Source: Bacteroidetes bacterium UBA2234 (GTDB lineage: Bacteria; Bacteroidota; Bacteroidia; NS11-12g; UBA955). Taken from it: a DNA stretch of 14,642 bases. The notes beneath the pieces are model-generated. The model did no database searches and was not told where the DNA came from. It saw only the letters and a program-made list of their open reading frames with translations. Positions within the stretch are counted from its first letter, which is position 1, and each line of letters starts with the position of its first letter. Below, in pieces: positions 7,689-12,781 of this stretch. A program made the translations under genes and the position numbers. The stretch spans positions 29,110-43,751 of the forward strand of contig DDYM01000026.1 in NCBI GenBank assembly GCA_002347985.1, given 5' to 3'.

Positions 7689-8231
7689 TTATGGATGCTC
7701 TAACAAAATTGAGGGCGTTACGATAATGTTACTTCTATGTAAAGCACGATCCATCAGCTGAATTGTGAATCGAACGGTATCACCTCGGTATTGATAAGGA
7801 CGAGCAGGAACATTGAGTACCAAATTCCCATGAATCGATTTGCTTAAGCCAGACGGAGTGATATTTCTGATCCTCTCATGCAGTACAAGTGTATCCTTGG
7901 GACCCATCAGGGGATTCATCGGGCAAATCCAACTGCCCCCAATTTTTTGCTGGTAATACACCTTTAGATTATAAAACTCGCTTTGTTTATAGCCAAAGGG
8001 CGACATCGTATCGGCATCGTCAAGTCCCACATCGCCATCGCTGTCCTCGTAACTCAAATCAATTTCTACAAAACTATCATACCCATACCCGCTGTTGAAT
8101 TTATAAATGCCTCCAAATGTCAGTTTGGGAACCGCGGAGACATTATCTTTGCTCGGATTACACGAGAACATAGTCCCGGCTAACAAAAGCATGACGGAAA
8201 CCATCGAAAATATTGAAAACTTATTCCACAT
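7689..8231 (-). CDS. Small lipoprotein with an Asp-rich DSDGDVG motif, function unknown
   Basis: This 180-aa protein starts at ATG 8231; a TTG 12 bases upstream lies in the promoter and is rejected. The N-terminus is a lipoprotein signal with a hydrophobic core ending in MFSC, so Cys24 is the likely lipidation site. After a short Asn/Ser/Lys linker the mature protein looks beta-rich. It carries the acidic run E62-D-S-D-G-D-V-G-L-D-D-x-D74, which resembles a calcium-binding DxDGDxG loop. From memory, many uncharacterised Bacteroidota lipoproteins share a similar D-G-D-G-D-I-G-L motif near a Y/F strand, so this is probably a member, but I cannot assign a function. It precedes the ompH pair on the same strand, and its 5' end overlaps the divergent LuxE-like gene by 41 bases. 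Confidence 0.78.
   Translation of the reverse strand: MWNKFSIFSMVSVMLLLAGTMFSCNPSKDNVSAVPKLTFGGIYKFNSGYGYDSFVEIDLSYEDSDGDVGLDDADTMSPFGYKQSEFYNLKVYYQQKIGGSWICPMNPLMGPKDTLVLHERIRNITPSGLSKSIHGNLVLNVPARPYQYRGDTVRFTIQLMDRALHRSNIIVTPSILLEHP
8144..8151 (+). promoter_or_regulatory. -7 element of the LuxE-like gene, inside the lipoprotein coding sequence
   Basis: TATCTTTG is an exact TAnnTTTG, 39 bases before ATG 8191. TTTG at 8124-8127 is a possible -33 with short spacing (16). It lies within codons of the divergent lipoprotein gene. Confidence 0.45.
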
Positions 8232-9165
8232 CCCTTCGTCCAAATTTAATGACTGGGCGCAGTTAATTTTTCAATACCAACAAAAAAACAACCCGGTTTT
8301 CGCTGAATGGCATCGACTTTACCCATCAACGTCGGCTGAGTTCACGTTTTTACCCATCGCATTTTTCAAAAGCCATACAGTTCTCAGCGGAAATAAAACC
8401 GCGGAAATCGTTTTTAGCAGTTCAGGAACTACAGGAAGCGTGCCTTCCCTTCATCCCGTTGCCGACCTCAATATTTACGAAGACAGTTTCACCAAAGGCT
8501 TTGAACATTTTTACGGTCCAATTGAAAATTACTGCGTGATCGGCTTGCTGCCAAGTTACTTGGAAAGAAGTGGCTCTTCGCTGGTTTATATGGTAGACAA
8601 TTTTATCAAAAAAGGCAGAGCCAACAGCGGGTTTTATTTAAACGAATACGATACCGTTGCCAAGATCATTCAGGAAAATGAAAATCAAAACGTTCCTACC
8701 CTACTTTTGGGAGTCACCTTTGCGATGCTGGAAATGATCAAAGCGATTCCTAAGCAGCACTGGAAACAGACCCTTGTAATGGAAACCGGTGGAATGAAAG
8801 GCCGAGGACCTGAAATTACACGTGAAGAGTTGCAAGCCCAATTAACTTCCCATTTGGGTGTTGAGCATGTCCATTCAGAATACGGAATGACGGAATTGCT
8901 GAGTCAAGCATATTCTCAAAAAAATGGTCGATTCCATTGTCCTCCTTGGATGAAAATCTGTATTCAAGATCCGGCAGATCCACAACTTTGGTTTGGTCAT
9001 GGCAAAACAGGAAGACTTTGCATTATCGATTTAGCAAATGTTCATAGTTGCTCTTTTATCGCGACAGACGATTTGGGCAAAACCCACGAGGATGGGAGTT
9101 TTGAAGTGTTGGGAAGGATTGACTTCAGCGACCTAAGAGGCTGCAATCAATTGGTAATCAATTAA
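8191..9165 (+). CDS. LuxE-like acyl-protein synthetase / acyl transferase
   Basis: I choose ATG 8191 (324 aa). A longer frame to 8107 begins deep inside the opposite gene, and the residues after 8191 already give the usual short lead before the conserved F-x-x-x-x-x-x-I-F-x-Y-Q-x-x-N-N-P-V-F segment. The protein belongs to the adenylate-forming LuxE family (PF04443 type): phosphate-loop SSSGTTGS at 76-83, METGGMKGRG near 202-211, SEYGMTELLSQAY as the A5-like motif, TDDLG and GRID near the end. LuxE proteins activate fatty acids with ATP and carry the acyl group on a cysteine near the C-terminus. Cys318 in RGCNQLV is at an equivalent place and is my candidate acyl site. No luxC, luxD or luciferase genes are nearby, so bioluminescence is not implied. 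The substrate is unknown; fatty or aryl acids are possible. Confidence 0.85.
   Translation: MTETIENIENLFHIPSSKFNDWAQLIFQYQQKNNPVFAEWHRLYPSTSAEFTFLPIAFFKSHTVLSGNKTAEIVFSSSGTTGSVPSLHPVADLNIYEDSFTKGFEHFYGPIENYCVIGLLPSYLERSGSSLVYMVDNFIKKGRANSGFYLNEYDTVAKIIQENENQNVPTLLLGVTFAMLEMIKAIPKQHWKQTLVMETGGMKGRGPEITREELQAQLTSHLGVEHVHSEYGMTELLSQAYSQKNGRFHCPPWMKICIQDPADPQLWFGHGKTGRLCIIDLANVHSCSFIATDDLGKTHEDGSFEVLGRIDFSDLRGCNQLVIN
8241..8248 (-). promoter_or_regulatory. -7 element of the lipoprotein gene, inside the LuxE-like coding sequence
   Basis: TAAATTTG (minus strand) is an exact TAnnTTTG, nine bases before the lipoprotein ATG at 8231. TTG at 8272-8274 (minus strand) is 23 bases away, longer than the usual -33 spacing. 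The site falls in the SKFN codons of the opposite gene. Confidence 0.45.
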
Positions 9166-11548: not shown

Positions 11549-11560
11549 CTGATAAAAAAA

Positions 11561-11586
11561 TAAAGGTCGCCCTAGGGCGACCTTTA
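11561..11586 (-). terminator. Rho-independent terminator of the rpsF-rpsR-rplI operon (26-bp perfect palindrome)
   Basis: The 26 bases form a perfect inverted repeat centred between 11573 and 11574 (arms begin TAAAGGTCGCC). On the minus strand the stem is followed by an almost pure T run (11552-11561), directly downstream of the rplI stop. In the plus direction no T tract follows, so it terminates the ribosomal operon, not transcription from the left. Confidence 0.9.
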
Positions 11587-11608: not shown

Positions 11609-12049
11609 TTACTCAGCGATCACATCCAAAGTGATGGTCGCGTTGATATCTTTAAACAAGTTGATGTTGGCTTCGTATGTTCCGATAGATTTGATATCAT
11701 CAAAAACAATTTTACGACGGTCTACATCAAACCCTTTTTCTTTCAATACATTGGCAACTTGTAAGCTGGTCACTGAACCGAAGATTTTTCCACTTGCACC
11801 TGCTTTTGCAGCAAGATTGATGGTAGATCCGTTCAATTTTTCAGCCAACGCTTCTGCATCTTTGCGCAACTTGTCCATTTTGAACGCGCGCTGACGCATA
11901 TCTTCGGCTAACATTTTCAATGCGCCTTCGTTTGCCAATTTTGCTTTTCCTGTAGGAATCAAGAAGTTCCTAGCGTATCCGTCTTTTACAACAACCACGT
12001 CATCTTTGTGACCTAGGTTTTTAACGTCTTGGGTGAGAATGATTTTCAT
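11609..12049 (-). CDS. rplI: Large-subunit ribosomal protein bL9
   Basis: The 146-aa protein is complete. The N-terminal rRNA-binding domain has the bL9 signature: MKIILTQDVKNLGHKDDVVVVKDGYARNFLIP at residues 1-32. A long charged connecting helix follows (about 42-75). The C-terminal domain (about 76-146) starts with GKIFGSVTS, typical of bL9. The protein binds 23S rRNA near the L1 stalk base and supports translational fidelity. The start ATG 12049 is set by a perfect Shine-Dalgarno AAGGAGG at 12057-12063 with a seven-base spacer, exceptional in this window. It is the last gene of rpsF-rpsR-rplI, 15 bases after rpsR, and a strong terminator follows. Confidence 0.97.
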   Translation of the reverse strand: MKIILTQDVKNLGHKDDVVVVKDGYARNFLIPTGKAKLANEGALKMLAEDMRQRAFKMDKLRKDAEALAEKLNGSTINLAAKAGASGKIFGSVTSLQVANVLKEKGFDVDRRKIVFDDIKSIGTYEANINLFKDINATITLDVIAE

Positions 12050-12056
12050 GTGTCTT

Positions 12057-12063
12057 CCTCCTT
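12057..12063 (-). promoter_or_regulatory. Strong Shine-Dalgarno of rplI
   Basis: AAGGAGG (minus strand) lies seven bases before the rplI ATG, in the short gap after rpsR. It is one of only two strong SD sequences among the starts in this window. Confidence 0.8.
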
Positions 12064-12064
12064 C

Positions 12065-12328
12065 TTATTTTAAACCATCAGCAACGAAAGGAAGCAACGA
12101 CAGGTGACGTGCTCTTTTAATTGCTACAGAAATTTTACGTTGATACTTCAAAGATGTACCGGTGATACGACGTGGCAAAATCTTGCCTTGCTCGTTGATG
12201 AACTTCAACAAAAACTCACCATCCTTGTAGTCGATGTATTTGATACCGTGTTTTTTGAAACGGCAATACTTCTTCTTTTGCAGAACCTGCGGAGTTTGGT
12301 TGAAGATAAAGTTTGATTCTTTGCTCAT
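12065..12328 (-). CDS. rpsR: Small-subunit ribosomal protein bS18
   Basis: The 87-aa protein has the bS18 core: [19 protein letters not shown] (residues 18-36), followed by the R-I-T-G-T block and the [21 protein letters not shown] signature near the C-terminus. It binds 16S rRNA on the 30S platform as a heterodimer with bS6. Its ATG overlaps the rpsF TGA stop in an ATGA arrangement (12325-12328), so the two are translationally coupled. An AGGAGG lies seven bases upstream within the last rpsF codons. The length is slightly above that of E. coli S18 because of an N-terminal extension. There is no sign of a zinc-binding CXXC form, since only Cys22 is present. Confidence 0.97.
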
Positions 12329-12729
12329 AATTCGTCCTCCTCGATTTCGATTTTCTTTTTAACAACAACTTTCGTTCCTTGCGGAGTTACCGTACGAAGC
12401 TCGCCATTGCGTTTGCGTTGATTGAAATCAACACCCCAACGGTCTAACTTCACAGTGAGGTAACGCAAGATGCGCTCGTCGCGGCGAAAAACCAATTCAA
12501 AAGACTTGATGAATTCAGGGTTTGCCTTAAATTCGAACAAGTGATAAAATCCCGTGCCTTTTTTCTGGATAGGGTAGGCTAGTTTGGTTAGTCCCCAATT
12601 TTCTTCGTGGACTAACTCCCCTCCATTGCCGGTGATCAACTCTCTGTAGCCTGCAACAGCATCTTTCATCTGTTGTTCAGAGAGCACGGGTGTCAAAATG
12701 ATCACGGTCTCGTACTGGTTGGTATTCAT
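12325..12729 (-). CDS. rpsF: Small-subunit ribosomal protein bS6
   Basis: The 134-aa protein begins with the bS6 strand [17 protein letters not shown] and carries the conserved W-G-x-x-K-L-A-Y-P-I-x-K block (about 45-56), H-L-F-E-F (about 63-67) and D-E-R-I-L-R-Y-L (about 84-91). It pairs with bS18 on the 30S platform. The C-terminal extension is first basic (VVVKKK), then acidic (EIEEDEL). The GAG-GAG-GAC codons of that acidic end also form the Shine-Dalgarno of rpsR. The start ATG 12729 has an A/T-rich upstream region with no SD, and a good promoter lies 21 bases upstream. It is the first gene of the rpsF-rpsR-rplI operon; no ssb gene sits between rpsF and rpsR, unlike in Firmicutes. Confidence 0.97.
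12336..12341 (-). promoter_or_regulatory. Strong Shine-Dalgarno of rpsR within rpsF
   Basis: AGGAGG (minus strand) lies seven bases before the rpsR ATG and is encoded by the Glu-Glu-Asp codons near the end of rpsF. Confidence 0.75.
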
Positions 12730-12750: not shown

Positions 12751-12781
12751 CAAAAATAGGGTTTTAAATCGACTCCTACAA
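12751..12781 (-). promoter_or_regulatory. Promoter of the rpsF-rpsR-rplI operon
   Basis: On the minus strand TTG (12781-12779), 20 bases and TATTTTTG (12758-12751) match the Bacteroidota -33/-7 consensus. The rpsF ATG follows 21 bases after the -7, giving a leader of about 15 bases. Confidence 0.7.

Follow-up and report, generated by a model that had tools for sequence, protein, structure and literature searches.

The motifs upstream of rpsR and rplI in the 14,642 nt stretch of Bacteroidia DNA analysed here (the window) are, as judged from their sequence conservation, genuine Shine–Dalgarno (SD) sequences under selection. They stand in a genome in which SDs are not in general use, because AGGAGG-N4-10-ATG is no commoner there than its reversed control (66 against 74 sites in the whole source genome), and this control, together with the conservation in the family, rules out a chance origin of both SDs. 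It has been reported for Bacteroidia that the 16S rRNA 3' tail is held by bS21, bS18 and bS6, with the anti-SD hidden (McNutt et al., 2023; PMC9976891, here and below as given in parts of that paper), which agrees with the masking on which the original prediction was built.

The operon and its two SDs

The source assembly comprises 2.19 Mb in 74 contigs, with the window on contig C63. The genes rpsF, rpsR and a third one, which from its sequence and the operon order we take to be rplI, encoding bL9, form a minus-strand operon (12729–11609; Table 1), in which the TGA of rpsF overlaps the ATG of rpsR (ATGA). The rpsR SD lies inside the last rpsF codons (GAG GAG GAC; the bS6 tail reads E-E-D-E) and the rplI SD begins 1 nt past the rpsR stop codon.

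Table 1. Features of the rpsF-rpsR-rplI operon (window coordinates)
Feature	Position	Strand	Remarks
rpsF, bS6, 134 aa	12325..12729	-	No SD
rpsR, bS18, 87 aa	12065..12328	-	PF01084 match; ATG at 12328
rplI (presumed), bL9, 146 aa	11609..12049	-	Relatives found via tblastn; ATG at 12049
rpsR SD, AGGAGG	12341-12336	-	7 nt gap to ATG
rplI SD, AAGGAGG	12063-12057	-	7 nt gap to ATG
Promoter-like -7 box, TATTTTTG	12751..12758	-	21 nt 5' of rpsF ATG
Perfect inverted repeat AAAGGTCGCC/GGCGACCTTT, then T run	11554..11585	-	Read directly from sequence

There is no 16S gene in the source assembly, and we therefore rely on the seven family 16S genes with a complete 3' end, of which two are from the same genus. 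The tail is CCACCTCCTTT in 7/7, continuing with CTAG in six and TTAG in one, and the CCUCC anti-SD is intact in all seven. With this tail the rpsR SD forms six and the rplI SD seven contiguous pairs. Pairing energies were calculated with duplexfold against CACCUCCUUUCU; McNutt et al. (2023) name free_scan, so the values are not identical to theirs. The 16 starts of the window were called mechanically as the first ATG of each open reading frame (ORF), and some may be miscalled; among them rpsR has -11.6 and rplI -12.6 kcal/mol, while the other 14 range from -4.1 to +1.3 kcal/mol, the latter being the value of rpsF. The rpsR SD is thus well beyond the -7 kcal/mol taken as the criterion for rpsR SDs in Bacteroidia. 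The coordinates, the 7 nt spacing and the strength of both SDs were therefore predicted correctly, whereas the statement that these are the only two strong SDs holds for the 16 window starts and not for the genome: it is an effect of the window, because the S10-spc operon holds three more AGGAGG motifs.

Upstream of rpsF, the box TATTTTTG is accompanied by a TTG at 12781–12779 and matches TAnnTTTG, which we take to be the -7 box consensus of Bacteroidota; using five relaxed patterns, a TAnnTTTG-like box was found 19–32 nt 5' of rpsF in 30/30 analysed family genomes. From the position of this promoter-like box the rpsF leader would be only about 15–20 nt long. Because the box is so close to rpsF, there seems to be too little space in the operon for the rpsF_leader, a bS6:bS18-binding 5' UTR structure described for the same operon in many phyla in parts of two papers (PMC4647458, PMC7247131); the putative leader would be too short for a structured 5' UTR of this kind. 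An Rfam search, in which the presence of rpsF_leader in the library was not confirmed, gave three sub-threshold matches, none of them 5' of rpsF. Nor did the 30 family genomes examined show, on average, an mRNA hairpin over the two SDs (mean z +0.35 and +0.46). The inverted repeat downstream is likely, from its sequence, to be an intrinsic terminator closing the operon. Elsewhere in the window, a 352-aa plus-strand ORF (8107–9165) runs opposite to its neighbours; its start region overlaps the start of the minus-strand ORF 7689–8243 and may be miscalled.

Conservation in the family and the class

Thirty of the 39 genomes in the family set entered the rpsR and rplI counts (four had no rpsR match and five no locus). 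A motif of AGGAG or better precedes rplI in 30/30 and rpsR in 24/30. In four of the rplI cases it agrees only with an alternative ATG, which was selected on account of the SD and lies 9 nt upstream of the start initially assigned. A GGAG core is present at rpsR in 27/30, in four of them 13–14 nt away, and absent in 3/30. In contrast, AGGAG or better was found before rpsF in 0/30 and a GGAG core before rpsU in 0/30 family genomes, the source genome included; the rpsU count is based on 30 genomes (one had no match, eight no locus) that overlap the rpsR/rplI set only partly. An alternative rule combining energy with motif gave 24/30 for both rpsR and rplI, and the motif-only counts were adopted instead. 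Within the own genus, rpsR has AGGAGG in 5/5 genomes, and rplI has AGGAGG in 2/5 and AGGAG in 3/5. Thus conservation in relatives bears out both SDs and the SD-less state of rpsF; what it does not support is an exclusive tie of SDs to platform genes, as rpsU and rpsF have none and the 50S protein bL9 has the best-conserved SD of the four genes compared.

Energy alone is a weak yardstick, and we prefer motif and conservation, because mock windows reach -7 kcal/mol in up to 17/29 family genomes (rplF). At this threshold the S10-spc starts are patchy in the family (rplW 15/29, rplR 14/30, rplC 7/28), rplB reaches it in 1/30, and there were no such starts for rplD (0/30), rpsH (0/28), rplF (0/29), rpsE (0/28), rpmD (0/30) or rplO (0/30).

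Since the rpsR SD lies within rpsF, it could be a by-product of the acidic bS6 C terminus, whose Glu and Asp codons would yield AGGAGG by chance and with no role in initiation. The core is indeed inside rpsF in 26/27 family genomes with a core and in 39/41 of all genomes with one, and the source genome's own tail is acidic. However, the reading of AGGAGG, mostly xAG-GAG-Gxx, allows E, K or Q as the first residue (with shorter SD cores also L, M or G), two genomes (G036 and G054) spell it E-G-G, one (G016) spells it G-E-D in another register, and in the remaining 2/41 (G025 and G104) the rpsR SD stands between the genes, which are 15–17 nt apart. The claim of dual use therefore stands in that the SD is encoded by bS6 tail codons, but its tie to acidity does not, as K-E, Q-E, E-G-G and intergenic sequence also hold it in relatives. 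Codon choice points the same way: in the last eight rpsF codons of 42 genomes with the SD, GAG makes up 63/99 Glu codons (64%, a value that is partly high by definition), as against 9/96 (9%) in 75 SD-less genomes and 36–43% in the rpsF bodies (296/817 in SD-less genomes). With a GAG share that is high in the former tails and low in the latter, the tail codons seem to be under pressure for or against an SD, according to the needs of the lineage. In addition, a by-product of bS6 cannot explain rplI, because the rplI SD lies past the rpsR stop. On the basis of the alternative spellings, the codon bias and the conservation we reject this explanation as extremely improbable, and for rplI it is refuted outright.

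The survey of the rest of the class covered 90 of the 93 other genomes in which rpsR was matched and 89 of the 95 in which rpsU was; the start of rpsF could be read in 87. There, AGGAG or better was found before rplI in 27/90, rpsR in 14/90, rpsU in 18/89 and rpsF in 0/87, and the same motif 30 nt further upstream, used as a control, was found 0, 1, 0 and 2 times, respectively. Association tests used the energy-plus-motif rule. The SDs of rpsR and rplI co-occur, since 12 of 15 genomes with an rpsR SD (source genome included) also have the rplI SD (p = 2e-5), as do 6/8 when one genome per family is taken (p = 0.006); the rplI SD is also present in 16/76 genomes lacking the rpsR SD. No association was seen in the class genomes between the rpsU SD and the rplI SD or between the rpsU SD and the rpsR SD (4/15 genomes with and 13/73 without the rpsR SD; p = 0.48), and we dismiss a switch between rpsU and rpsR SDs, which neither replace nor accompany each other. 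In many Flavobacterium loci (L110–L167) among the matches listed, the region upstream of rplI contains a shared, conserved AAGGACAACAAC-like segment but no full SD. As to kinship, the 98 other genomes drawn contained one of the same order, which is seemingly small, and a three-protein FastTree tree, built from short alignments and rooted on Saprospiraceae, placed the family outside Flavobacteriaceae.

SD-bearing genes of the source genome

Of the 68 site-and-spacing pairs of AGGAGG counted genome-wide, 10 precede the first ATG of an ORF; this count covers ORFs of 80 aa or more that start with ATG. The genes concerned are rpsR, rplI, rplC, rplW, rplR, a nuoK-like gene and four others, ribosomal protein (r-protein) genes thus making up 5 of the 10. 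While rplW and rplR were confirmed by Pfam searches, rplC and the nuoK-like gene are names that we presume from sequence and gene order. The three additional r-protein carriers lie in the S10-spc operon, which shows that SDs are not confined to the bS6/bS18 operon. Whether many other genes carry equal SDs thus has a divided answer: there is no general use, but some other AGGAGG carriers do exist. We further examined 404 sampled starts, drawn around AGGAGG sites and from the S10-spc operon with ORFs that run off the end of a sampled segment left out. The median pairing energy was -1.8 kcal/mol, against -2.4 in the mock window, and AGGAGG precedes 5/30 r-protein starts (counted by hand) but 2/374 others (Fisher 3e-5), frequencies that in such a sample are not genome averages. 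The nuoK-like gene, one of the few non-ribosomal genes with an SD, has AAGGAGG 6 nt 5' of its ATG (C19:7276-7290).

The arrangement of these genes could suggest translational coupling, in which the SD would help ribosomes finishing rpsF or rpsR to start again: the starts of rpsR and rplW overlap the preceding stop (ATGA), and the rplI SD follows the rpsR stop almost directly. Yet the other 14 ATGA overlaps in the 404-start sample are without AGGAGG, one having -7.7 kcal/mol and the rest -5.8 or weaker, 0/5 TAATG junctions in that sample are at or below -7 kcal/mol, and the two genomes with an intergenic gap before rpsR keep the SD in it. Coupling at ATGA overlaps is thus unsupported, and we consider coupling in general an improbable explanation.

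Reading of the SDs and relation to known systems

We think that, on balance, the SDs of rpsR and rplI are probably read best by 30S subunits in which the 3' tail is free, as part of a small SD set rich in r-protein genes (with the source genome's rplC, rplW and rplR) and not as a loop for bS18 alone. The platform of such subunits would be still incomplete, or would have become so again. By analogy with Flavobacterium johnsoniae, the anti-SD would be hidden in the mature 30S of the source lineage, provided that its ribosomes behave like those of F. johnsoniae and that loss of bS18 frees the 16S tail as loss of bS21 does, both of which we infer. When platform proteins are short, synthesis of bS18 and bL9 would then rise relative to that of the SD-less bS6 from the same mRNA, and the net effect would presumably be feedback, including feedback on bS18. 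The latter explains part of the pattern at most, because rplC, rplW and rplR carry AGGAGG, rpsU and rpsF have no SD, and the rplI SD is commoner than that of rpsR.

We rank reading by free-tailed subunits first because the facts on the platform and the 16S tail agree with it and because AGGAGGU responds to the loss of bS21. The bS21 and bS18 platform parts examined look normal from their sequences, with a Tyr at position 54 of bS21 and bS18 residues 16–87 aligning to the F. johnsoniae 7jil chain. A reporter given AGGAGGU in F. johnsoniae became sensitive to the loss of bS21, its output rising more than twofold in bS21-deltaC, by 70% in Y54A and by 40–70% in the depletion strain, while an AGGA reporter was virtually unchanged (PMC9976891). 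An SD of about the length of those of rpsR and rplI can therefore suffice. Counting against this reading, these SDs offer only 6–7 bp, compared with 9–13 bp in the proven bS21 loop, the non-platform gene rplI has the commoner motif in the class, and rplI is weakened to AGGAG in 3/5 genomes of the own genus. Further points against it are the missing or distant cores at rpsR in part of the family, the dependence of four rplI cases on the alternative ATG, the patchy S10-spc SDs and the lack of a link between the rpsR and rpsU SDs.

Second, with a clearly lower though appreciable probability, we place static tuning, according to which the SD would be read by a fixed minority of the ribosomes or, weakly, by all of them, and would lift internal cistrons to r-protein stoichiometry without any feedback. 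This is consistent with the r-protein SDs being on internal cistrons (rpsR, rplI, rplC, rplW and rplR) and not on the promoter-proximal rpsF or on rpsU, with the presence of non-platform proteins among the carriers, and with the energies of rpsR and rplI, which fall short of the -14 to -21 kcal/mol given for rpsU in PMC9976891 with another program. However, the internal genes rplD, rplF, rpsE, rpmD and rplO manage without an SD (0/28–30 each), and wild-type F. johnsoniae made somewhat less from the AGGAGGU reporter, which the authors attribute to base changes or structure (PMC9976891).

A bolder form of reading by free-tailed subunits takes the rpsR-rplI pair as a sensor of unfinished 30S, in which platform-incomplete particles with a free anti-SD would selectively raise the synthesis of bS18, which they lack, and of bL9, the most conserved output. 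In this lineage the pair would take over the parts played by the rpsU loop and the bS6:bS18 leader. It draws on the report that in Escherichia coli bL9 enhances 16S maturation (PMC4399890, in part), and we regard it as unlikely.

What is new in these findings is small. Strong rpsR SDs in Bacteroidia, and the suggestion that bS18 is autoregulated through them, go back to Jha et al. (2021), as cited in parts of PMC9976891 and PMC8710568, and a list in McNutt et al. (2023) already includes rplI and rplW among other Bacteroidia ribosomal genes with SDs; the sentence concerned does not name rplC or rplR, and the section around it gives no role. An open-access search for rpsR or rplI SDs or bS18 autoregulation in Bacteroid* gave only these two papers and the review PMC10931766. 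The system cited from Jha et al. (2021) resembles ours in having a strong SD 5' of rpsR in an SD-ignoring class. It differs in that the SDs cited are from Bacteroidales, Cytophagales and Sphingobacteriales, while the source genome lies in a seemingly small order, and in that our lineage lacks the rpsU SD and conserves the rplI SD better than that of rpsR. Our additions are a lineage in which rpsR and rplI have SDs and rpsU has none, the leading place of rplI, two further carriers (rplC and rplR), and the evidence from codon choice. The exception to SD-blindness already known from Bacteroidia is thereby extended to another lineage. Of the four genes compared, that of the non-platform protein bL9 has the best-conserved SD in our family and also the commonest in the class sample, and models that explain SDs by platform-protein feedback must account for it. 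The model can be tested with the F. johnsoniae reporter strains already published.

The closest precedent for such a reading is the autoregulation of rpsU by bS21-less ribosomes (McNutt et al., 2023; PMC9976891), in which an SD is likewise read by ribosomes with a freed anti-SD. There the SD is on rpsU and stronger than -13 kcal/mol, whereas the 6 bp of rpsR reach -11.6 and the 7 bp of rplI -12.6 kcal/mol, and the source genome's rpsU has no SD, unlike the extended rpsU SD reported for several Bacteroidia orders. This rpsU (C38:23580-23738) has a TATTTTTG box 21 nt 5' of its ATG. In genus g9 of the family, two genomes (G009 and G020) have AAAGGAAGTGG at rpsU, which is close to the extended SD but contains a single mismatch; at rpsR, G009 is without an SD and G020 keeps GGAGG, and the near-SD possibly marks a transition between the rpsU and rpsR arrangements.
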